Source: a candidate division Kazan bacterium
Lineage (GTDB): Bacteria > Patescibacteriota > Kazan-3B-28
Length of the DNA stretch: 36,072 nucleotides
Direction of reading: 5' to 3'
Assembly (NCBI GenBank): GCA_003647645.1
Contig: QMNG01000006.1
Span: forward strand, 1 to 36,072
The position numbers were made by a program, and so were the translations under genes. The notes beneath the pieces are model-generated. The model was not told the DNA's origin. It was given only the letters and a program-made list of their open reading frames with translations, and did no database searches. Positions within the stretch are counted from its first letter, which is position 1. Each line of letters opens with the position of its first letter. This document shows positions 2,338 through 35,421 of this stretch, one piece after another.

Positions 2338-3573
2338 TTAAAAGTCAAGTGATGTGAAGTCCGTTTTGCCAAACTGTTCCAAAAATAGTTGATAATCGAT
2401 TGAGTTTACTGAGCCGTCGCCATTTAAATCAGCAGATTTGGAAAATGAACTACCATCACCCTCGGCGCTGTCATCAGCGCTGGGATAAAGTGCCCCAAAA
2501 GTAAATTCGTAGGTGGCCTCCGGCTCATAACTGGCTGCAAAGTAGAGTATCTTGCGATCCATGCCCGGAACTTCCAAAACTATTACATATTCTTCACCAG
2601 TCAGCAATTCTACATCTTCAAAAACAACTCTTGGATGTTTGGAAAGAATCACCCCGTCTAAACGGGCCACTTTTCGGCCGTCTGCGGCGGTGTTGATACG
2701 GACACTTCCTTTCTTGTCGTTGATAATGGTGGTTTCGTTGTAGTCAACAATAATTTCCTTAGCAATTTGGGAATTGCCTTTTTCCATATCGCCCCATTGT
2801 ACCGGTTGAGTAGAAACCACCTCTTTATCTGCCGGCTGAAAAGCGATTTTAATCTCAGCAACGGCAGTGAGATTATCAGGGTTTACGTTCAAAAATGTAA
2901 CCTCAAGCTGTAAGTATCGCGAAACTGGTGTTTCCTGGAGTGACTGATGTTCAATTACTTGCGAATTAGAATGAGAAAGCGACGCCGAAGTATCTTCAAT
3001 AGTGATAAAATTACCGGATAGATTAGCGCCAGCCCCCGTGCGATACCCATAGCGAATCTCTGAACCTAGCGGACGGATATCAAACATTGTAAAACTTCTG
3101 AGTGTACTGCCCTCAGCGCCCAGATCAATTACCGGCGAAGTATAGCAGTATTCTTTTTCTGTTTCGACCGGCTTGGTCTCCTTTTTGGGCTTCCGGGAAT
3201 CGTCCCCAAGGAGCGATTCGTCCTTATTGCTGGGCAAATCAGATTTTTTTATACCCTGTACCTCAACTCCGGCGTAAGGAACCAAAAATCCGTTGAAAAT
3301 TGGATCAGCTGGTTCAATATTCTCGATGATCTCAACATTTTCCAGTTTTGGGCTACTATCTTCTACCCACCAGTCGCCGGCCTTGCCCCGCCATTCATTG
3401 ACATTTGAAATAACTATCTCTTCGGTTTGTGACGCGCCGGCACCGATAAGTTTTAGCACACCCTCAAGAAAATTACCCTGGAAAACTATAGTGCCAGTTA
3501 TAATTAGAGCCACGCCAAAGACAGCAATTTTGATTATGAGAGAATAGTTTTTGGGTTTATTTTCTACTTCCAT
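2338..3573 (-). CDS. Membrane-anchored extracellular protein with C-terminal dockerin-like EF-hand repeat
   Basis: ORF track 2338..3753; likely true start MEVENKPKNYSLIIKIAVFGVALIITGTIVF near 3573, because the upstream extension is translated palindromic repeat. C-terminus ADLNGDGSVNSIDYQLFLEQFG is dockerin-like. Confidence 0.75.
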   Translation of the reverse strand: MEVENKPKNYSLIIKIAVFGVALIITGTIVFQGNFLEGVLKLIGAGASQTEEIVISNVNEWRGKAGDWWVEDSSPKLENVEIIENIEPADPIFNGFLVPYAGVEVQGIKKSDLPSNKDESLLGDDSRKPKKETKPVETEKEYCYTSPVIDLGAEGSTLRSFTMFDIRPLGSEIRYGYRTGAGANLSGNFITIEDTSASLSHSNSQVIEHQSLQETPVSRYLQLEVTFLNVNPDNLTAVAEIKIAFQPADKEVVSTQPVQWGDMEKGNSQIAKEIIVDYNETTIINDKKGSVRINTAADGRKVARLDGVILSKHPRVVFEDVELLTGEEYVIVLEVPGMDRKILYFAASYEPEATYEFTFGALYPSADDSAEGDGSSFSKSADLNGDGSVNSIDYQLFLEQFGKTDFTSLDF

Positions 3574-3619
3574 TTTAAATTTGAGTTGTGAATTATGGAT
3601 GTTTTTGTTTTTGCTTTCT

Positions 3620-3739
3620 GTCATTCTGAACTTGTTTCGGGATTTGGTCTGCCCGGCCAGGGATCCTGAACTAAATTCAGGATGACAGTGGATGTGTTCA
3701 GGATGACAGTGGATGTGTTCAGGATGACGGGATGACGGA
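3620..3739. repeat. Related palindromic element with 21-bp tandem amplification
   Basis: gtcattctgaacttgtttcggga...ggatcctgaactaaattcaggatgacag; 21-bp units at 3676-3696 and 3697-3717. Confidence 0.8.
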
Positions 3740-3776
3740 TAATGCCGGTTCATTCTTCATTCTTCATTCTTCATTC

Positions 3777-17798: not shown

Positions 17799-18202
17799 TG
17801 GTGGAGCTGGGGGGAATTGAACCCCCGTCCAGAGAATAATTTTTATAAACTTCTACATACATAGTCTATTTGGTTTGTATCCCCTACTGTTCACAAATAG
17901 ACAAAGCAACAATAGGATAAGTCGGATGAATCTTAGTTGTTGGCACCGACATCCAACAATGCAACTCGGCTAAATCGACGCCGATCACAACCTTGCCGAG
18001 TACAAGCTGAAATCAGCGGCACTAGAAATTAAGCCAGTGCTGGCGCGAACCGAAGTCCGCTAAATGCTTTATTGGCATTTGTAAGTTTGTCCGTTGTTTT
18101 ACCGCCGGTCCGGAGTGACCTCTGGTCCGGAGGACGCGTGAGCGAACATCCGCGATATGCAATCCATAAAAATCAATGTCCCTGTCGAAGCCAAACAGCC
18201 CC
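17799..18202 (-). ncRNA. ssrA: tmRNA
   Basis: 5' GGGGCTGTTTGGCTTCGACAGGG and 3' GGACGGGGGTTCAATTCCCCCCAGCTCCACCA (minus strand); acceptor strands GGGGCTG/CAGCTCC; encoded CCA; tag ORF at 18103-18029; smpB nearby. Confidence 0.95.
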
Positions 18203-24748: not shown

Positions 24749-27700
24749 ATGACCAAAAAACTGCAAAAAATCCTCAGCTTCTCAGTGGCGTTTTCTTTGG
24801 TTGTCCAGCTAATAGGTGTTACTCCCCTAGCCGGAGCTTTAGCTGCCACCAGGGAGCAAACCAATGACTGGTTCAGACGGAGTTCACAAGCCGAGACCGA
24901 TATCAACGTTCTCATGCCCGAAGTTGAGGAGCTTCAGGCAAAACTTGACGCCGTAATTCAATCAGAAGCCAATTTAGAAAGGACTGCCAGTACAATCCAT
25001 CAAAAATTAGAGGAAGCTAAAGTATCACTCTTAAGTGGTCCTCTGTCATTGGCCAGTATATATATGCTTGCAGACAAGGCAGGTGGATTTGCTGACTTCA
25101 TCAGAAAATATGGCGTCTACTGGAATGTTAAAATGAACGCCGAGCAGTATAAAGATTGGTTCGAAGAAAACAGAACTAAATATGAAAAAGCCCTGGCAAG
25201 CGCGGAATCAGAAGAGAAAGAAGCTGAATTGTCAAAATATCGGCTTGATTATCGTGTCCCCAACCAAATCCTCCACGAGAGTGAGATCAAAGAGATCAAC
25301 GGACAAATCGCCCACATTCTTGATGGTGTTGCCAGCCACAATATTGATGATGAATGGGCCAAGATTGCTGCTGAAACACTAGACAATATAGATATTTCTG
25401 AACTGCTAGTGGAAGGAATTAAATTATCAGATATCGGGACTTCTGATGAAATCAGAAAAAGCTTGGATGAAAAGCGCAGGAAATTGATTCTGTCCAAGTC
25501 CCAACTCAATCAGGTTGAGCGAGAAAAACTCGAAGATATCTTCATCGAACACGAAGACGAAGCAATTAGAACGGCTTACCAAGAGGCCTCTAGAGTTATT
25601 GATGAAAATATTACAACGATTGCCGAAACAGAGGCCAAGCTGGCAGGCATAATCAAAACTAAACAAAATTTTCAAGAAGCCATTGCCTTTGCCCGCGAGC
25701 GACTGGGACTGGCTAAGGCGGTCTATCTGCATGAAGCGCCTAAATTTTCCAGCCTCTCAATGCTGGAAGCAGCCGGCGGCTTAAAAGATTTCGTTAAAAA
25801 GGGCTCTTATGACGGCGTAGTTATCGATTTGCCGACATATGAGAAGCTATTCGAAGATAACAAAACAAATTACAAACGGTTGTCTGAAGAGATCAAAAAA
25901 CTAAATGATGACATTAAAAGATTGGAGGAAGATACAGAGCTTGATGAAGCTGGGCGAGAATCGTTGGCTGAGAAACAAACAGCGTTAGTCGAAAAACAGG
26001 CAAAGCTAGAAGAAGAATACGGACTAACCCACACCATCCCCAATGAAATTTTATACAAAGAAGCCATTGAACAGATTGATGAATGGGACGAGTACATCCG
26101 TGATTCTGACATCAGCGACAGCACTTGGATGGACAGATTAGGAATAGTGTTAGGAGCCACAGACAAATACACTTTGGCGGACTACTTCGCCGGCATCGAG
26201 GAGACCGCCGGACACATAAAAGACATTCAGACACTCTTTGAAGATGGAATTACCCTTGATGATTTAACCAACGAAGAAAATATAGACTTCGAGCTCCGGG
26301 AAGCCCAAACGCAAATTAAAGAATCCTTGGATACAATGTTGGAAATACTCCCCCGGCAGGCATCTACAACTCTGATTCCGACTCTTAACAATGGTACTAA
26401 TTTCTTCACCGAGCTGGTAAACGCATACATCAACATCGAAATCATCTCTACGGAATCCACTCTTATGGTGCCATTTGATCCGAACAACCCAGCCGATTCC
26501 AGTACGCTCATTACCGCCCGGGTCACCGATATTAATAACGAGCCAGTAATTGGCGCTCGGGTCACTTTCTCCAGCGGCAATGCCTACTTCCCTGATAATT
26601 CCGGCGGCTTTTCAGCCACAGCTACTCAATTGACTGTCCAAGATCCAAATATTGGCGGAACTTTCAGTGGAACAGCTCAAATCGAATATACTGCCACTGA
26701 TGGCGAAAAACAAGCTAACCGATATGAGGAGGACACAGTTGATATCTATGCCGCAGCCACCATCGAGCTTGAGGACGGCACAACCAGCAAACCGGTATTT
26801 GCCCACCTTGAATTAACCAAGAAAAACCGCAATCGACTAAAATCTAGCCCGCTGGACCCTGAAGAAGAGAGGCAAAAAGACGAACAAGCCAATAAAAAAG
26901 TTGAAGAACTGGCTTTCGCTGCCCGGTCTAATCCCGGCAATTTAGTTTTTGATATGACTGCCGATATTTCCCCTGAGAACAATCTTGACGGCGCTAAAGA
27001 AGCTATCGCGACTATTAGGGTGCAAGCTGCTTATTCCACGCAAGTTACCGGCAAGCGCGATGCCAAAACTGGCATCCCCCAGTATGTGGACGAAAATGGT
27101 CGTGAGATCAGACAAGACCAAAAACCAAGCCTTGCCCCCGAGCTACAAATGTTTGTTCAAATGTCAGATGGCGAGAAGATGGCAGCTTCATTCAAATACA
27201 AAAATAAGAAAAACAAGTTTCGCAATTGGGTAATGACGGACAGTGAAGAGAGGGATATTAACGAAGCCGAGGGCTTAGTAGAAAAAACTGTATCTTGGAC
27301 ATTGAATGAAAAAGTTGAGCGGGTATTAGCCCTTAATCCCAATATCCCCGGTGTTCGGACCATTGATATTTTGGCCGAGCTAACTTCCGGCAGTTTGCAC
27401 AATGCCCGGGAATTCAGGGATACCCTGCGCGAGCAGGGCTACCCGGAATACAAAGCCGAGGCTAACAGCTGGCCACGCTTGGCAGTCCAATCGGCCTTTG
27501 ATCGGACAATCAGATGGTTTGCACCTGCATTCGCCCAAGATATTCCCGAAGATTCTGAAGAAGATCCAGAGCCAATCGTCGATCCAGAGGAAAATCCCAA
27601 GGAAATCCCACCTGAGGAAACTCCAGATGATCCCGAAGATACTCCCGAAGAACCAAATTGGGACAGAGGCCAAACTGTTCAATATGATGAAGACGGAAAA

Positions 27701-30700
27701 CCCCTCCCCGGCCAGGATAGCGCCAGCAATATATTCGTGTTGGCTTCAAGAACAATCAGCTTCTTGCAGGATAATCCACTTCCAGAACAAGAGGTTGAGT
27801 TTGAACTATCTGCTAACCCGTCCAAAATCGAAGAAGACGGCCAAACCGAAGTTCAATTAACTGGTAAGCTCACTGGTATAACATGGGAAACCGCCCACGA
27901 AACAAATAATAGCTCAATAAAGAGTAAATCTTGGCCCCTCCACGCTTTTGCCAATATATCTATTACTAGTACGGATGATGAGCTTGGTTCCGTAGAAAAT
28001 GAGATTGTTGAAATCGGCAACAATGGCATATTCAAAACAATTTATAAAACACCTTCAACCAAAGGCAACAGAACTATTACTATCTCTGTTAGCGGCGATG
28101 AGGCATACGATAAGGACAATCAGAATTTTGGTGCGTTTTCCGCTTCCGTAACTATAGAACACGGCCAGCCAATCGAGAAGATGACTGAAGGCGACGCCAG
28201 ATTCTTGCTGGGAGAAGACAGCAACTCAGATCGCATACTAAGAGTTTACGGCAGCAGAATTGATGCCGTTACCGATTATAGTTTTAGAGGCCGCTATGTA
28301 AAAATCTACGGGCCACTGGGAGGACTAACCCAAAATCTTGGCACGCGAATCAATGATTTGTCTTACCTTACTCCCCCAACACCAACTCGTAATCCCACCA
28401 TTGATCAAGAAACACTAAAACAAAATCAAAATCTTTACGAAAATAATCTTAGCCGATGGGAGAATATCAAGCCCCTGCGGGCCGACTTTGGTTCCACTAG
28501 CGACTTCAACGATGCTCTTGAAAACTGGCAGAACAACAAACCAGATCCAGAAGATTTTGGACTGGCAGTTGAATATCGCTACGTGATAATTAACACCGAA
28601 CTGACAGACCTGTCCGGCAATCCGATTACTGAGGGAACTGTCGTAGGAGAATCATTAAATCGAACACAAGCCAAGGCACATGAACATTTGATCGCTGCCG
28701 AGGGTGAAAAGGATGAGTACTTTTATCGAGGTGGCACTAGCGGAGCTAAATTGGAGCCTCGCATTAATTCAGGCGGGGAATCAACATTTTACTATGCCCC
28801 CGGACAAGCCCCGGCAGGAGACATCGGCAAGTTACGTTTTTCAAACACCTATTCAACTAAAGGCAGACGCAAAACATTGGAAGTAAATGTTGATATCCCC
28901 GTTGTTGATATTGAAGAAGCTCTTAAAGATAAAAAGCCAACAATTAAGGTTATAGTTGTTCCTCCCAAATATGCTGAAACTCAACGGGAAAAAATTGACA
29001 AGTGCAGAGAACTTTACGACCCTCGTAACCACGAAGAAAGTACAAAAAAAGTCCAAGAATGTATTGCTAATGTTAGAAAAGAAAATCTTGAAGATTTTCG
29101 CGAAAGGCTTCTTGGAATCGGTGATGAAAATGAAACCGAATACGAACACTTCGCTAAGCAGGCCTATAAATTAAAAATAACTGTAAAACCACCCAAGGAT
29201 GGTGACGATCCAGCCGGCAGAGTAGTCACTGCATCTGCCGAGCCTGTAGCTACATTCATCCCGCCTCCCGGGAAAAAAGTGGCCTACAAAAAAGACCCAT
29301 TTGGCAACCTCATCCCAGAAAACTTTGGCGATGACGATAATAACAATCCCTATCCTCCTCCAGAACCTCTACCGGGTGATTTTGGCGGCATCGAAGTGCC
29401 AATTGATAAATCTTTAGATACACCGGGCACAATCAGTTTTACATTAGATGAAAAGGGAGAATTTGGAACCCAAACAGGCAGAGAACTTCTAATTTTGCCC
29501 AATTCGCTGCCTACTCGAATTGTATTTATGTACACCGATTCCAAGGGTGTCCATACTTATACAGTTGTAATTAAAGGAAAACAAAAGTTGAAGGAGATGA
29601 AGGATCCGGCAGTACCAAGTCCATTAAAACAATGTAACCGTGATGGACTATTTGAGTTGTGTATCGAAACTACTGCAAATACTATAGCCCCCAAAGGTAC
29701 GAGAAAAATTACTGTTAGCTTGGACTTCACTAATGAAGCTAAAGAAAAAGATCGTAGCATTATTGAAAAAATATTGGGTGGAGGAGTCAGTCTGCCTGTC
29801 GGATTAAGAGTGGATGGAATTGGTGATATGGGACAATTCATTGGCTACAGTGAAACCAACAAACAAGGACAACCAAATGTTGCTTGGAATTTTAAAGGTA
29901 AAGTTCCTAATAGTGAATGGGTATTATACGAAGCCGATGCGGCCCCCAATAAACCGGTTCATCTAGAAGCTGGAGTACTTTACAAAGCAGGTTTGAGTAT
30001 TTTCCCAACAGACACAAGAGTTAAATTGACATTGAAAAAAGATCCCAATTCACCGACCGAATCTGAACTTAACGAGATAAAACAAGAAAATCTAATCACT
30101 GAGAAAACAAAGCCAATTGACACTGATGGTGATGGTGTCTCAGATAAAGATGAGAAAAAGGCTGGAACCGATCCCAACGATCCAGATGATAAACCTAAAG
30201 ACACTGATGGTGATGGTAAATACGATTATGAGGATCCGGACATAGATGGAGATGGCATAGCCAACGAGAATGACGAAACACCCTATGGCGATACTGACGA
30301 ACTAGGCGACAAGGACGATGATGCTGGTGAAGGCGACTCTGATAATGGTGAGGATGAAAATGGCGAACCAGGCGACGAAGACTCATCCCCGGAATCTCTC
30401 CCAGCATTTGAATTTGACACCACCAAGCCATTTGGCTCTGCCGTCGACATAGATGAATCTTGGAATAGCGCTAAGGCCGTAATCCAGAACAGCCCACTGC
30501 TTTCTCCAAGGCAAAAAGACGATTTAAATAAAGCACAAGGAATGGCCGCTGCTAATCTTTTAACTAACATAGTCCGGCTTAACCTTAAAGACACCACATT
30601 CAAAGATGACCCTGGATTAAAAGAGCTAGCCGACACAGCTATTGGGCTCAGGCTACTGGCAGAGTTATCTGCGACAGAAAACAGCAACAGCAGCGAAAGA

Positions 30701-31534
30701 GAAAAACAGTTCTTTGAACAAGCTGTCGATTTCTATCTTGAAAACAACAGCTTTGAGAGTATCGAAGCACTCAGTGATTTAAACAGATGGAAGTTTGACA
30801 GATTAATGGAAGAAGTTTTACGAAGTTATGAAAGTATGGGGTTTGACCCATACACTAACCAAACAAATATTCCAGAGTTAAGCCCGTATGCGCCTGACTT
30901 TGAAGCAACTATTATTAAAGCCAGGCAGACCGTCCGTAATAATTCTCTGCTTGATGCTTCTGAAAAAGATCGGCTGAACCACAATATCGACATCATTGGA
31001 AGCAATCCAACTATGTTGGCCGGAGGTACGTACTACGGTTACATAGAATCTGCTGTTCGACAAGCTACTGAGGGAGTTGCTAGCGGCAATCCAGAAGTCA
31101 AAGAATTATATGGCATGCTTAATGATATTTTGCTAGACACTATTTTAATATCCAGCTTAAAAAACAACAGTGAAACCGATAAAGCCAATGCCAAAAAGTG
31201 GGTGGATAGAGCCCGCGGTGGCCAGCTGTCTGAACTGGAAAAATTAACTACCACGCCCGATTGGAGCGGCAGTTCCGATGCGCGAAGAATCCAGCGCTTA
31301 ATTGAAAAACTCCGGTATAATAGAAATCGAATGGGCTTAGACAGCGATTCACCGAACGATGGTTCGGGCGAGGATATGCCATTGTGGGGCGGCGGCATCA
31401 GCAGCGCATTTGATAACCTGTTTAACATCTTCGGCACTTATGCCGGGACTGACGGGGCTGCCAGCGCTAATCCGGTAGTAAATATATGGAATCTAATCAC
31501 TAATTTCTTCAGCAACCTGTTTTCAAGAAATTAA
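24749..31534 (+). CDS. Giant secreted protein (2261 aa): helical duplicated N-terminus, Ig-like modules, acidic TSP3-like Ca-binding region, helical duplicated C-terminus
   Basis: Signal peptide (KKLQKILSFSVAFSLVVQLIGVTPLAGALAA); DTDGDGVSDKDEKKAGTDPNDPDDKPKDTDGDGKYDYEDPDIDGDGIANENDETPYGD; internal repeats by eye. Confidence 0.88.
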   Translation: MTKKLQKILSFSVAFSLVVQLIGVTPLAGALAATREQTNDWFRRSSQAETDINVLMPEVEELQAKLDAVIQSEANLERTASTIHQKLEEAKVSLLSGPLSLASIYMLADKAGGFADFIRKYGVYWNVKMNAEQYKDWFEENRTKYEKALASAESEEKEAELSKYRLDYRVPNQILHESEIKEINGQIAHILDGVASHNIDDEWAKIAAETLDNIDISELLVEGIKLSDIGTSDEIRKSLDEKRRKLILSKSQLNQVEREKLEDIFIEHEDEAIRTAYQEASRVIDENITTIAETEAKLAGIIKTKQNFQEAIAFARERLGLAKAVYLHEAPKFSSLSMLEAAGGLKDFVKKGSYDGVVIDLPTYEKLFEDNKTNYKRLSEEIKKLNDDIKRLEEDTELDEAGRESLAEKQTALVEKQAKLEEEYGLTHTIPNEILYKEAIEQIDEWDEYIRDSDISDSTWMDRLGIVLGATDKYTLADYFAGIEETAGHIKDIQTLFEDGITLDDLTNEENIDFELREAQTQIKESLDTMLEILPRQASTTLIPTLNNGTNFFTELVNAYINIEIISTESTLMVPFDPNNPADSSTLITARVTDINNEPVIGARVTFSSGNAYFPDNSGGFSATATQLTVQDPNIGGTFSGTAQIEYTATDGEKQANRYEEDTVDIYAAATIELEDGTTSKPVFAHLELTKKNRNRLKSSPLDPEEERQKDEQANKKVEELAFAARSNPGNLVFDMTADISPENNLDGAKEAIATIRVQAAYSTQVTGKRDAKTGIPQYVDENGREIRQDQKPSLAPELQMFVQMSDGEKMAASFKYKNKKNKFRNWVMTDSEERDINEAEGLVEKTVSWTLNEKVERVLALNPNIPGVRTIDILAELTSGSLHNAREFRDTLREQGYPEYKAEANSWPRLAVQSAFDRTIRWFAPAFAQDIPEDSEEDPEPIVDPEENPKEIPPEETPDDPEDTPEEPNWDRGQTVQYDEDGKPLPGQDSASNIFVLASRTISFLQDNPLPEQEVEFELSANPSKIEEDGQTEVQLTGKLTGITWETAHETNNSSIKSKSWPLHAFANISITSTDDELGSVENEIVEIGNNGIFKTIYKTPSTKGNRTITISVSGDEAYDKDNQNFGAFSASVTIEHGQPIEKMTEGDARFLLGEDSNSDRILRVYGSRIDAVTDYSFRGRYVKIYGPLGGLTQNLGTRINDLSYLTPPTPTRNPTIDQETLKQNQNLYENNLSRWENIKPLRADFGSTSDFNDALENWQNNKPDPEDFGLAVEYRYVIINTELTDLSGNPITEGTVVGESLNRTQAKAHEHLIAAEGEKDEYFYRGGTSGAKLEPRINSGGESTFYYAPGQAPAGDIGKLRFSNTYSTKGRRKTLEVNVDIPVVDIEEALKDKKPTIKVIVVPPKYAETQREKIDKCRELYDPRNHEESTKKVQECIANVRKENLEDFRERLLGIGDENETEYEHFAKQAYKLKITVKPPKDGDDPAGRVVTASAEPVATFIPPPGKKVAYKKDPFGNLIPENFGDDDNNNPYPPPEPLPGDFGGIEVPIDKSLDTPGTISFTLDEKGEFGTQTGRELLILPNSLPTRIVFMYTDSKGVHTYTVVIKGKQKLKEMKDPAVPSPLKQCNRDGLFELCIETTANTIAPKGTRKITVSLDFTNEAKEKDRSIIEKILGGGVSLPVGLRVDGIGDMGQFIGYSETNKQGQPNVAWNFKGKVPNSEWVLYEADAAPNKPVHLEAGVLYKAGLSIFPTDTRVKLTLKKDPNSPTESELNEIKQENLITEKTKPIDTDGDGVSDKDEKKAGTDPNDPDDKPKDTDGDGKYDYEDPDIDGDGIANENDETPYGDTDELGDKDDDAGEGDSDNGEDENGEPGDEDSSPESLPAFEFDTTKPFGSAVDIDESWNSAKAVIQNSPLLSPRQKDDLNKAQGMAAANLLTNIVRLNLKDTTFKDDPGLKELADTAIGLRLLAELSATENSNSSEREKQFFEQAVDFYLENNSFESIEALSDLNRWKFDRLMEEVLRSYESMGFDPYTNQTNIPELSPYAPDFEATIIKARQTVRNNSLLDASEKDRLNHNIDIIGSNPTMLAGGTYYGYIESAVRQATEGVASGNPEVKELYGMLNDILLDTILISSLKNNSETDKANAKKWVDRARGGQLSELEKLTTTPDWSGSSDARRIQRLIEKLRYNRNRMGLDSDSPNDGSGEDMPLWGGGISSAFDNLFNIFGTYAGTDGAASANPVVNIWNLITNFFSNLFSRN

Positions 31535-31536
31535 TT

Positions 31537-32886
31537 ATGGAAAATCAAAATAATCCTAACCCAAATAGTGAGAATCAAAATTCTGCTGAACAGCAGAATA
31601 ATCCACAATCGGGTAAAGACAAGCAGGATTCTGCCGAAAGGCAGGATAATCAGCAACCAAACCAAGGAAATGAAAATCAACCTCCGAATCAAGAACCGAA
31701 GAACACTAATACCCCTCCCCCCGAACCTACATCCCCCCGTCCTGATGAACCCACACCCCCTCGTCATTCTGAACTTGGTTCAGAATCCCAAAGCAAAATC
31801 CCGAAACAAGTTCGGGATGACAGTGTAAAAAAAGATACAGCGCCTGTCGAAGAACCGGAAGATATGTTAGCCGGTACTGATGAAACTCCAGCTTCTACAC
31901 CCGAAACGCCAGTTGCTTCAACACCCACTCCTCCGCTCCATTCTCCTGAGCCCCTATCTCCTCGTCATTCTGAACTTGGTTCAGAATCCCAAAGCAAAAT
32001 CCCGAAACAAGTTCGGGACGACCAAGAAAAAAACAATATTGGTACAAAATCCAAAAAGGGTTGGATTTGGTGGATAGTCATAAGTTTAATATTAGCTGGC
32101 GCTGTCGCCACTTACTTTTTGGATCTTTGGCCGGATTGGCTGAGTTCTCCCATTAGCTCTATCAGCGAAGTTTCAGAACCGGAAGAAAGTTTTGTTCCGC
32201 TATTTCCCCGCTCCTCGACTATGCCCAATGGCAGCATTACTATACAGGGCAAAACTCCGAGAATAATAATTTACAATTTAGAGCCGTCCTTCGACAGACA
32301 ATTCAGCTACCAACTAGTTTTGTCCGGGGACAGTTCTCAGTTTGAAGTCGGAAGTTTCGATGGCAGCAATGAAGAAGGAGAGCCAATCAACCTAGACGGC
32401 AGCGATGTAAAGCTGAGGTCCATAGACGATGCTACAAATTATGACACAGCCACAATCAAAATAGTTTCAAGATCGTCTAGTCCGCAAACATCTACTATCA
32501 TGGAGGGTTCGCTTGTAGCGAAGACAAGTTCCGTAGTTTCAGCTGATCTAAATTTCCCCTACTTGTTTGACAGAATTGGTGCGGGAGTTGAAATGAGCAT
32601 CGTTCGGGGCGGAGAAAGCACTATTAATTTTGACGCTACATCTCTCCCCGACTTAAACGCTATTGGCTATGAATACGAACTGCGGCTTGTTGAATTTGAA
32701 GGCCCTAATGTGGCTGGCGAACTTACCCTGGGTCGGTTCCAGGGCAACACTGCTGGTTCGACTAATTTCACTGCCAAAACCAGCAGAAACTTGAGTCGAT
32801 TCAATCAAGTGGTTGTAAGTTTGGAACCGGTTTGGGACACCAACCCGACCATTTCTCAAATAAAACCCTTCTCTGGAGAGATTTAA
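31537..32886 (+). CDS. Single-TM protein with low-complexity N-terminus carrying in-frame palindromic repeat insertions and an extracytoplasmic domain
   Basis: Starts 2 nt after the 2261-aa CDS; TM (GWIWWIVISLILAGAVATYFL); RHSELGSESQSKIPKQVRDD twice. Confidence 0.85.
   Translation: MENQNNPNPNSENQNSAEQQNNPQSGKDKQDSAERQDNQQPNQGNENQPPNQEPKNTNTPPPEPTSPRPDEPTPPRHSELGSESQSKIPKQVRDDSVKKDTAPVEEPEDMLAGTDETPASTPETPVASTPTPPLHSPEPLSPRHSELGSESQSKIPKQVRDDQEKNNIGTKSKKGWIWWIVISLILAGAVATYFLDLWPDWLSSPISSISEVSEPEESFVPLFPRSSTMPNGSITIQGKTPRIIIYNLEPSFDRQFSYQLVLSGDSSQFEVGSFDGSNEEGEPINLDGSDVKLRSIDDATNYDTATIKIVSRSSSPQTSTIMEGSLVAKTSSVVSADLNFPYLFDRIGAGVEMSIVRGGESTINFDATSLPDLNAIGYEYELRLVEFEGPNVAGELTLGRFQGNTAGSTNFTAKTSRNLSRFNQVVVSLEPVWDTNPTISQIKPFSGEI
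31580..31599. repeat. Perfect palindrome ATTCTGCTGAACAGCAGAAT within CDS
   Basis: Read directly. Confidence 0.85.
31628..31647. repeat. Hairpin ATTCTGCC-GAAA-GGCAGGAT within CDS
   Basis: 8-bp stem with one G-U pair and a GAAA loop; similar coding context to 31580. Confidence 0.75.
31761..31822. repeat. Double-palindrome element, copy 1 (in-frame in CDS)
   Basis: tcgtcattctgaacttggttcagaatcccaaagcaaaatcccgaaacaagttcgggatgaca; two hairpins. Confidence 0.9.
31962..32023. repeat. Double-palindrome element, copy 2 (in-frame in CDS)
   Basis: Differs from copy 1 at 2 of 62 positions. Confidence 0.9.
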
Positions 32887-32895
32887 ATATAATAT

Positions 32896-32925
32896 GTCAT
32901 TCTGAATTCATTTCAGAGAATCTTA
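32896..32925. repeat. Half-element gtcattctgaattcatttcagagaatctt
   Basis: Shares gtcattctgaa and imperfect ATTCTGAA/TTCAGAGAAT hairpin with the copies above. Confidence 0.65.
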
Positions 32926-33651: not shown

Positions 33652-33726
33652 TGGTCGGAGTGGGCGGATTCGAACCGCCGACCTCATCGTCCCGAACGAT
33701 GCGCGCTACCCCTGCGCCACACTCCG
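33652..33726 (-). tRNA. tRNA-Pro (anticodon CGG)
   Basis: CGGAGTG...CATCG-TTCGGGA-CGATG...GGTTCGAATCC...CACTCCGACCA cloverleaf, CCA encoded. Confidence 0.93.
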
Positions 33727-33729
33727 CGG

Positions 33730-33801
33730 AGCCGGAGGGGAGATTCGAACTCCCGGCCTCTACTTTACGAAAGTATTGCTCTACCCCTGAGCTACTCCGG
33801 C
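33730..33801 (-). tRNA. tRNA-Thr (anticodon CGT)
   Basis: GCCGGAGTAGCTCAGGGGTAGAGCAATACTTTCGTAAAGTAGAGGCCGGGAGTTCGAATCTCCCCTCCGGCT; CCA not encoded. Confidence 0.92.
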
Positions 33802-33835
33802 TTACCTCTACTTCTAATATACTTTACTCAAATAA

Positions 33836-33980
33836 ATAAAAAACACCAATAATTTGCCGTCCATTTTGTTCCTGGGGAAACCAGGTGGGGTTCCTCATGC
33901 CATGCCCCCGAGCACAACATATGCAGATCCCCTAGTTGATAGTGTAGGATCAAATGCAGAAACGACAAGTTAATGGTGCT
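33836..33980 (-). ncRNA. Candidate structured small RNA (6S-like long closed hairpin), unassigned family
   Basis: TATAAT -10 at 33987-33992; closing pairs CACCA/TGGTG, TTGTCG/CGGCAA, CATTT/AAATG between the two ends; T-run immediately 3'; no ORF. Confidence 0.5.
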
Positions 33981-34033
33981 ACTCCTATTATATCACGGAA
34001 AAAATAAGTCAAATTGGAACCTGGGGATAAAAT

Positions 34034-34693
34034 CTAGAACGGCATAATGCTAGAGCCAACTACCCATTGTATTAATGCAATTACCGGCTCTAGCAGCGTA
34101 AAAATAATATTCGTACCAATTAGCCTGTCAGCGAAAATAAGCAACAGCAAAAGAATAGGCCCAGTCCGCTCCAGAGCCAAGATTCGGCTGTGGCTCATAC
34201 CAAAATTACTCAAAATCAAATACAAAACTTTGGAACCGTCCAGCGGTGGAATTGGAATAAGATTAAACGCCGCCAAAAAAATGTTCAGTGTAACCACGAT
34301 GGCCAGAAAAACATAAATCGGGCTGTCTGGCAATGCTTGGTGGGTTATAAGATAGATTCTGCCCGGCAGAGCGAATAAAAAAGCCAACAAAATATTCGAC
34401 ACTGGCCCGGCTAGCGCCACCATCATTTCACCAAACCTGCCCCTTTTAACAAAACTGGGGTTATATGGCACCGGTTTCCCCCATCCAAAGCCAACCAAAA
34501 ATATTAAAATGGTACCCATCAGATCTAAATGGGATATAGGATTAAGAGTTAGACGGCCAGCCATTTTAGCAGTTGGATCACCCAGCATTGTAGCTGCCCA
34601 AGCATGCGAAAATTCGTGGATGGTGATCGCTATTATCAGGGCCACGACAAAAAACACAAAGGTGTCGAGTTGTTGGAAAATCCCCAGCAGCAT
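34034..34693 (-). CDS. M50-family site-2-protease-like zinc metalloprotease
   Basis: HEFSHAWAATMLGDPTAKMAGRLTLNPISHLDLMGTILIFLVGFGWGKPVPYNP; NLIPIPPLDGSKV. Confidence 0.92.
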   Translation of the reverse strand: MLLGIFQQLDTFVFFVVALIIAITIHEFSHAWAATMLGDPTAKMAGRLTLNPISHLDLMGTILIFLVGFGWGKPVPYNPSFVKRGRFGEMMVALAGPVSNILLAFLFALPGRIYLITHQALPDSPIYVFLAIVVTLNIFLAAFNLIPIPPLDGSKVLYLILSNFGMSHSRILALERTGPILLLLLIFADRLIGTNIIFTLLEPVIALIQWVVGSSIMPF

Positions 34694-34787
34694 AAAAATC
34701 TTGTTCTAATTTATCTTTTTTGTTAATCTAACTTAGTCATTATAATTCTTTATTAGTTTATCAGTCTATCAGTTTATTAGTCCACTT

Positions 34788-35030
34788 ATGTCCAAAGTAT
34801 GCGACATCTGCCACAAGGGCCCGACCACCGGCCACAATGTCAGCCACTCGAAGCGCCACACCAAACGCACCTGGCATCCTAATTTGATTACCAAAAGGAT
34901 GATGATCAACGGGCACATGCAAACTCTGAGAATTTGCGCTAAGTGCCTAAAAACTTTGTCCAAAGCTCCGCGTAAAAAGCCTACTCGTACTGTTGTATCT
35001 GCCACGGGCAAGCCAAAGCCCAAATCATAA
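34788..35030 (+). CDS. rpmB: 50S ribosomal protein L28
   Basis: MSKVCDICHKGPTTGHNVSHSKRHTKRTWHPNL...RICAKCLKTL. Confidence 0.95.
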   Translation: MSKVCDICHKGPTTGHNVSHSKRHTKRTWHPNLITKRMMINGHMQTLRICAKCLKTLSKAPRKKPTRTVVSATGKPKPKS

Positions 35031-35069
35031 AACCAATCGGCCCGTACTTGGGCCAATTATCAGTATCAC

Positions 35070-35100
35070 TTTTAACGGCTCAAAATATGAGCCGTTAAAA
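35070..35100. terminator. Hairpin TTTTAACGGCTCA-aaata-TGAGCCGTTAAAA downstream of rpmB
   Basis: 13-bp perfect arms, 5-nt loop, A/T flanks. Confidence 0.7.
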
Positions 35101-35153
35101 AATATCTACGCCAACCCGCAGACAGCTCTAAATGTTATATTGTAAATAGCCGC

Positions 35154-35227
35154 GCGGGTGTAGTTTAATGGCAGAACGTGACCTTCCCAAGGTTAAGACG
35201 GGAGTTCGATTCTCCTCACCCGCTCCA
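35154..35227 (+). tRNA. tRNA-Gly (anticodon CCC)
   Basis: GCGGGTGTAGTTTAATGGCAGAACGTGACCTTCCCAAGGTTAAGACGGGAGTTCGATTCTCCTCACCCGCTCCA. Confidence 0.93.
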
Positions 35228-35329
35228 ATTAGGAAAACACTTTGGAGTATGGACGAACCTAGCCTTGCGGCGGTTCTCATCCTGTCAATCACTACGGGCT
35301 GATGCCCAAACAAGTTGGGCGCCAACCCG

Positions 35330-35421
35330 TGGCGGAGAGGGTGGGATTCGAACCCACGATACCGGAAATCCGGTATAACGCTTTTCGAGAGCGCCCCTTT
35401 CAACCACTCAGGCACCTCTCC
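35330..35421 (-). tRNA. tRNA-Ser (anticodon CGA)
   Basis: GGAGAGGTGCCTGAGTGGTTGAAAGGGGCGCTCTCGAAAAGCG... with long variable arm and encoded CCA. Confidence 0.92.

Follow-up and report, generated by a model that had tools for sequence, protein, structure and literature searches.

In-frame palindromic repeats in genes of a Kazan-related Patescibacterium and their probable identity as CGTC-class REP dimers

Two nearly identical palindromic segments within one gene of a Kazan-related Patescibacterium are very probably intragenic REP dimers of the CGTC class, i.e., REPIN-like inverted pairs. They are located in a stretch of 36,072 nucleotides, hereafter called the window, and the order to which the organism belongs carries a family of such dimers. 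The elements are discrete hairpin units which are repeated in the genome, feature covarying stems and occur in frame in unrelated proteins with homologues lacking the segment.

A first-pass annotation of the window had described positions 31761-31822 and 31962-32023 as near-identical 62-bp segments with two hairpins each. Direct reading confirmed 2 differences in 62 positions (T31820/C32021 and A31822/C32023), and DNA folding of the first copy yielded both stems as described. The conserved unit comprises 59 bp from GTC to GAC (31763-31821 and 31964-32022, both on the forward strand) and is identical at 58 of 59 positions, with a preceding C completing the motif CGTC in both copies (C31762, C31963). 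It represents an inverted pair of 24-nt hairpins, each consisting of the tag GTC, an 8-bp stem starting with AT and a 5-nt loop. In copy 1, the left half (31763-31786, forward strand) is composed of GTC, the stem ATTCTGAA, the loop CTTGG and the closing arm TTCAGAAT, and the inverted right half (31798-31821, reverse strand) of the stem ATCCCGAA, the loop ACAAG and TTCGGGAT followed by GAC; the respective halves of copy 2 occupy 31964-31987 (forward) and 31999-32022 (reverse). The sole difference within the unit, a C of copy 2 at about 32019-32021, turns GAT into GAC; Asp is retained, but the right stem loses its outermost pair. As single-stranded DNA, copy 1 folds into exactly two hairpins (-14.4 kcal/mol, z = -4.9), with 0 of 200 shuffles being as stable. 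As RNA, one long hairpin is possible for copy 1 (-22.8 kcal/mol, z = -5.0) and two hairpins are obtained for copy 2 (z = -3.5). Allowing up to three mismatches, the half-element was detected at 3 places in the window and at none in 100 dinucleotide shuffles, and no Rfam family matches the window elements. A degenerate single half, extragenic, is located at 32896-32919 on the forward strand, 10 bp downstream of the stop codon of the host gene. A further dimer of the family (L003; 67 nt, about 3618/3620 to 3686, forward strand) lies at the extreme 5' end of an open reading frame on the reverse strand (2338-3753). As a plausible start (MEVENKP) is found downstream of it, this dimer is probably extragenic, and the window region 3618-3686 was left out of the intragenic set on account of both its extreme N-terminal position and this start.

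The host gene (31537-32886, forward strand) is an open reading frame of 449 amino acids. Its product features a low-complexity N-terminal segment rich in Pro, Asn and Gln, followed by a single hydrophobic stretch (WIWWIVISLILAGAVATYFL, window positions about 32064-32130) and a C-terminal region, and a Pfam search gave no match for this protein. In agreement with the first-pass annotation, both copies are placed in one frame of this gene, N-terminal to the hydrophobic stretch, and each is read as the peptide RHSELGSESQSKIPKQVRDD, with copy 1 encoding (R)HSELGSESQSKIPKQVRDD. A second reading frame (VILNLVQNPKAKSRNKFGMT) is open across each copy as well, thus openness alone is insufficient to fix the coding frame, which was instead identified by the long open reading frame and by its start, placed directly behind the upstream gene like those of two orthologues. 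The annotated N-terminus might nevertheless be wrong, leaving copy 1 untranslated as an ordinary extragenic REP, given that REPs in the 5' part of open reading frames often lie outside the true coding region (PMC3733652) and that an ATG occurs at about codon 109, between the copies. This is quite unlikely, because a single open frame of 449 codons runs through both copies and because the window gene, like its orthologues, begins no more than 7 bp from the stop codon of the upstream gene. Moreover, copy 2 would be translated in any case, as no ATG, GTG or TTG follows it in frame before the hydrophobic stretch. Directly upstream of the host gene, positions 24749-31534 encode a protein of 2261 amino acids with a bacterial TSP3 repeat, and the host-gene orthologues in the genomes G005 and G006 likewise have a large open reading frame directly upstream. 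The window further contains a tmRNA gene on the reverse strand (17799-18202, tag peptide ANKAFSGLRFAPALA) and four tRNA genes at 33652-35421.

The two host-gene orthologues detectable in the order (L036, 35% identity; L037, 30%) lack the peptide, and their segment before the hydrophobic stretch comprises about 75-85 amino acids compared to about 180 in the window protein. The alignment of orthologues proposed by the first-pass annotation thereby revealed two relatives without the insertions, but at 30-35% identity the exact empty site is unreadable; clean absence can be seen in LeuRS and TrmD, conserved proteins in which this type of element occurs. The disordered N-terminal segment of the window gene would have tolerated two insertions. 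A tandem duplication of the repeat together with its flank (201-bp offset), in which the second copy would not be a separate insertion, was considered as well. The 60 bp upstream of the copies match at 29 positions, compared to a maximum of 23 in 64 other in-frame windows, and the repeat designated D1 spans 101 nt at 84%. Against codon-shuffled controls, however, the 100 bp upstream show borderline similarity (local p = 0.05; ungapped p = 0.29), and the downstream flank shows none (p = 0.59). The copies thus lack significant similarity in their flanks, and a larger duplication is unsupported. In addition, the identity of the copies drops sharply at GAC, with a few shared bases upstream (CCTC), and the 59-bp unit type has further copies in this genome and in others. 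A tandem duplication is therefore unlikely, and the second copy probably arose as a discrete unit by insertion, local copying or conversion. Separate insertion of both copies, as envisaged before, is unproven, since the unit may also have been copied locally or converted.

The presence of further copies in the genome, suggested before as a check, was borne out by a pattern search allowing 3 mismatches, which detected 22 half-elements in the window assembly (G000) and 0 with the reversed pattern. This number is modest for a REP family. All 22 are situated on the contigs C1-C6, the largest ones of this assembly. Within the order, copies were present in 6 of 9 genomes, with zero in G001, G002 and G007, and within the phylum half-elements were found in 70 of 290 genomes (reversed control 0). 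The exact 60-mer had no match in the GTDB genomes, a set which possibly does not include the window's own genome. The assembly bin of the window is probably mixed, since the contigs C10, C20, C60, C88 and C100 (L211, L213, L217, L220 and L221) show tetranucleotide correlations of -0.04 to 0.29 with C1-C6 and since the assembly comprises 138 contigs and 1.14 Mb compared to 0.4-0.8 Mb in the relatives; for C7 and C14 the correlation is 0.95 or more.

From fetched stretches of six genomes, 89 distinct elements were collected, 37 of which were called inverted dimers (><), and many of the singletons show a degenerate partner. A complete 8-bp stem, counting G-U pairs, is present in 117 of 124 half-elements. 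The compensatory stem changes that the first-pass annotation had proposed to look for are evident: 98.5% of the cells are paired, and both sides are changed in 36 cells compared to a mean of 9.5 after shuffling, a value reached in 0 of 500 shuffles, with sliding of the pairs destroying the signal. Stem types covary, as the third pair occurs as C-G, G-C, T-A or A-T and the fifth as T-A or C-G, and among 51 distinct halves the first two stem pairs are A-T (49) and T-A (50). The tag GTC is invariant in these 51 halves, which the scan required, although mismatch-tolerant searches also return GTC. The halves analysed have loops of 5 nt, with 4 or 5 nt permitted by the scan, and the inner flank after the stem reads CTA, CTT, CTG, CCA or CCC. 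Orthologous intergenic REPs (L059, L071, L103) differ by extra sequence in one hairpin loop, which is sometimes palindromic itself (TCCGCCAGTTGGCGGA), with the stems being largely intact.

Twelve of the 89 elements are dimers well inside long open reading frames, the two window copies included. Dimers share the same site in TrmD of G003 and G004 (the latter matching candidate division Kazan bacterium RIFCSPHIGHO2_01_FULL_44_14, METB01000001.1, which puts the window into a Kazan-related family), in IleRS of G005 and G006 and in LeuRS of G004 and G005. Fpg of G006 holds another one, and G003 and G004 carry the element at this site with one changed half. Further dimers reside in ThrRS and MnmA of G003 and in a reverse transcriptase-like open reading frame of G006, and single halves were found within ArgRS (G004) and again in MnmA. 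The main host families of the intragenic dimers were confirmed by Pfam. Homologues of LeuRS and TrmD with solved structures lack the segment and align well on both flanks; this absence is less sharp in the solved homologues of IleRS, ThrRS and MnmA. The element in LeuRS of G004 is missing in G003, a member of the same genus with 84% identity in this protein, as well as in G001, G002, G006, G007 and G008. The best match of the window copies, at 52 of 59 positions, is the element in IleRS from another family, and no intergenic dimer comes as close. Other inserts were observed in these genes as well. In LeuRS of G003 (L225), a short tandem repeat of AAATTCC units occupies the REP site of G004 and G005, i.e., this loop collects different repeats. 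MnmA of the window genome contains a different in-frame palindromic insert (L246, 2399-2469; G000:C2 at about 113551-113621; TGTCATCCTGAGCGAAGCG...CTCGGAATGAC; CHPERSVAKSKDLIKQIPRQARND) in the loop where G003 has its CGTC REP dimer, and Fpg of G005 carries yet another insert (CGTCAT...ATGAC).

Intragenic dimers measure 53, 56, 59 (seven), 65 or 68 (two) nt. Their length is of the type 3n+2 in 12 of 12 cases as compared to 7 of 24 other dimers (p = 5e-5), and the same proportions apply to being free of stops in some frame. The other dimers are mostly 52 nt long (12 of 24) and in no case 59 nt, and stops interrupt all six frames of the common intergenic form of 52 nt. The frame used by all 12 intragenic dimers is xGT-CAY, encoding RHPE..., RHSE... 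or CHPE.... As the open reading frame criterion favours frame-preserving and stop-free copies, it partly predetermines these figures on length and frame, and the pattern shows what survives in genes and not where insertion occurs. Insertions into genes would survive only if the added length is divisible by three and the unit is free of stops, and the survivors would be those landing in a loop or disordered linker.

For insertions shared by two genomes, codons with an unchanged amino acid were compared inside the element and across the remaining gene. In TrmD (G003/G004), none of 19 such codons had changed within the element, compared to 71 of 188 elsewhere, and in IleRS (G005/G006) the respective numbers were 1 of 19 and 361 of 738. 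Synonymous change outside the element thus amounts to 38-49% in these genes, and the pooled difference is significant (p = 3e-9); no other stretch of the same length in the same gene was as low as the element (0 of 172 for TrmD, 0 of 870 for IleRS). LeuRS showed 0 of 12 changed codons compared to 213 of 450. The effect was weaker in Fpg, with 3 of 15 codons changed compared to 76 of 198 elsewhere, and with 21 of 254 and 6 of 255 other stretches being as low as the elements with 3 of 15 and 2 of 14 changes, respectively. Since permissive loops of LeuRS and Fpg may have received the element more than once, so that these insertions would not be orthologous, the claim of a synonymous freeze rests on the two loci TrmD and IleRS. 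Stems changed at 0, 1, 2 and 2 of 32 positions in TrmD, IleRS, LeuRS and Fpg, respectively, and loops plus linkers at 4 of 30, 1 of 21, 9 of 21 and 5 of 21. In every pair compared, both members retain all sixteen stem pairs, G-U included. In the second stem of LeuRS, both sides were changed from C-G to T-A, which keeps the pair and alters two amino acids. Shared intergenic copies keep their stems, too. The nearly frozen synonymous sites in the shared insertions suggest that the nucleic-acid hairpin and not the peptide appears to be kept. Inside genes, the element would hence be maintained as a hairpin or a protein-binding DNA or RNA site, as synonymous positions barely change while loops and linkers do; such keeping of stems could reflect selection on a hairpin function as well as a structure-directed correction process.

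It is most improbable that the module RHSELxSES..K..KQVxDD is kept for the protein, as a linker or binding motif with an incidental palindrome. Such a role would fit the same reading frame in 12 of 12 intragenic dimers, even though a second frame is open in some, those of the window included. In TrmD (0.83 compared to 0.87) and LeuRS (0.60 compared to 0.73), however, the amino acid identity of the element does not exceed that of the remaining gene and synonymous sites are frozen; in IleRS the element is above the remaining gene (0.95 compared to 0.81). Besides, the majority of copies is intergenic and the host-gene orthologues do without the peptide. Distant conservation of the peptide combined with synonymous drift and a lack of other copies, named at the outset as speaking against inserted palindromes, was accordingly not encountered, and the relatives' copies show the reverse.

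A stronger competitor, still rather doubtful, sees the elements as selfish passengers without function, the stems of which look conserved through recent insertion or refreshment by gene conversion. The patchy distribution with zero copies in three genomes of the order (G001, G002, G007) is in line with this, as are the gain or loss at one site within genera for LeuRS and Fpg and the near-identity of the window copies (58 of 59) among otherwise more diverged copies of the genome. Nevertheless, the copies in TrmD (G003/G004) and IleRS (G005/G006) share locus-specific linkers and arm types unseen at other loci, thus they look vertically inherited and not overwritten, and 40-50% of third positions have changed in their flanks, with stem changes at just 0 and 1 of 32 positions. 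Returning to maintenance at the nucleic-acid level, the in-frame dimers could tentatively be seen as a coding-adapted subtype (mostly 59 nt, stop-free and with a hydrophilic frame) that is held in housekeeping genes by selection on the nucleic-acid hairpin, an idea which is conceivable rather than probable. If true, a binding site or a signal for mRNA stability or translation would be carried inside genes for tRNA synthetases, tRNA modification and repair, and an unneeded peptide loop would be the price of a structural DNA or RNA element within a gene.

The copies most likely spread as short non-autonomous units through an activity acting in trans. A Y1/RAYT transposase was rejected as the mobiliser owing to its absence from REP-rich relatives: Y1 domains (PF01797) are absent from the REP-rich genomes G003-G006 and from G008. 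They are present in G007, a genome with zero REP copies. The two Y1 genes of the window assembly are located on the small contigs C88 and C81 with no REPs nearby, and C88 exhibits an alien tetranucleotide composition. The missing Y1/RAYT genes in REP-rich relatives agree with CGTC REPs having no dedicated transposase (PMC3733652).

CGTC REPs were described to feature the tag (C)GTC, a stem of 8-9 bp with A and T first, a loop of 4-5 nt and a short unpaired tail, most fitting CCA, and to occur predominantly as inverted dimers in the orientation named HH (PMC3733652). Intragenic dimers encode 20-30 amino acids, with some open reading frames hit twice and with hits in tRNA-related and DNA-repair genes; the phyla concerned were Proteobacteria, Chlorobi, Bacteroidetes, Spirochaetes and Thermotogae (PMC3733652). 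The elements reported here resemble these repeats (Di Nocera et al., 2013) in the tag, the 8-bp stem starting with AT, the 5-nt loop, the inverted dimers and the multiple copies, as well as in their in-frame position within genes, twice in one open reading frame and in tRNA-related and repair genes. They differ in the host, a member of the Patescibacteria, and perhaps in the tail, which is mostly CTA, CTT, CCA or CCC. REPINs likewise constitute an inverted pair of short palindromes with a spacer acting as a unit (Bertels and Rainey, 2011; PMC3116915). Compared to these, the tag is GTC instead of GTAG, many copies lie inside genes, REP-rich relatives lack a Y1/RAYT-type gene and the Y1 genes of the window assembly are not beside REPs.

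Palindromic elements of Rickettsia have been described as deteriorating with age, unlike the shared copies investigated here, which keep 16 of 16 pairs. These Rickettsia palindromic elements (RPEs) lie in frame inside unrelated, conserved protein genes, and those first reported comprised about 150 bp (PMC10969869). The same kind of placement is seen here in TrmD, IleRS, LeuRS, Fpg, ThrRS and MnmA, with homologues lacking the segment, but the elements are shorter (53-68 bp) and belong to a different lineage. The first-pass annotation had regarded RPEs as an analogous precedent, which fits but is understated: since RPE-4 and RPE-6 of R. conorii were classed as CGTC-4 and CGTC-1 REPs, respectively (PMC3733652), the relation is more than analogy, the tie being the shared CGTC class as cited.

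Thus, the element class and its in-frame occurrence are known; novelty lies in the phylum, in a 59-nt type compatible with coding and in synonymous sites that are nearly frozen. Among open papers, no earlier report of REPs in Patescibacteria was found and a text search gave no match for the encoded peptides. Frozen synonymous sites in shared in-frame copies are not described in PMC3733652, the text of which contains neither "compensatory" nor "selective". The range of CGTC REPs gains a phylum, and its insertions, resolved as to reading frame, offer a system for seeking the missing mobilising enzyme. Palindromic repeats in protein genes, i.e., RPEs and intragenic REPs, are usually read as tolerated selfish DNA. 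In this order of very small genomes, such repeats reside in several essential-type genes of species pairs close enough to be compared. If the freeze holds in more pairs, intragenic REPs would be functional nucleic-acid sites and the view of mere passengers would need revision.
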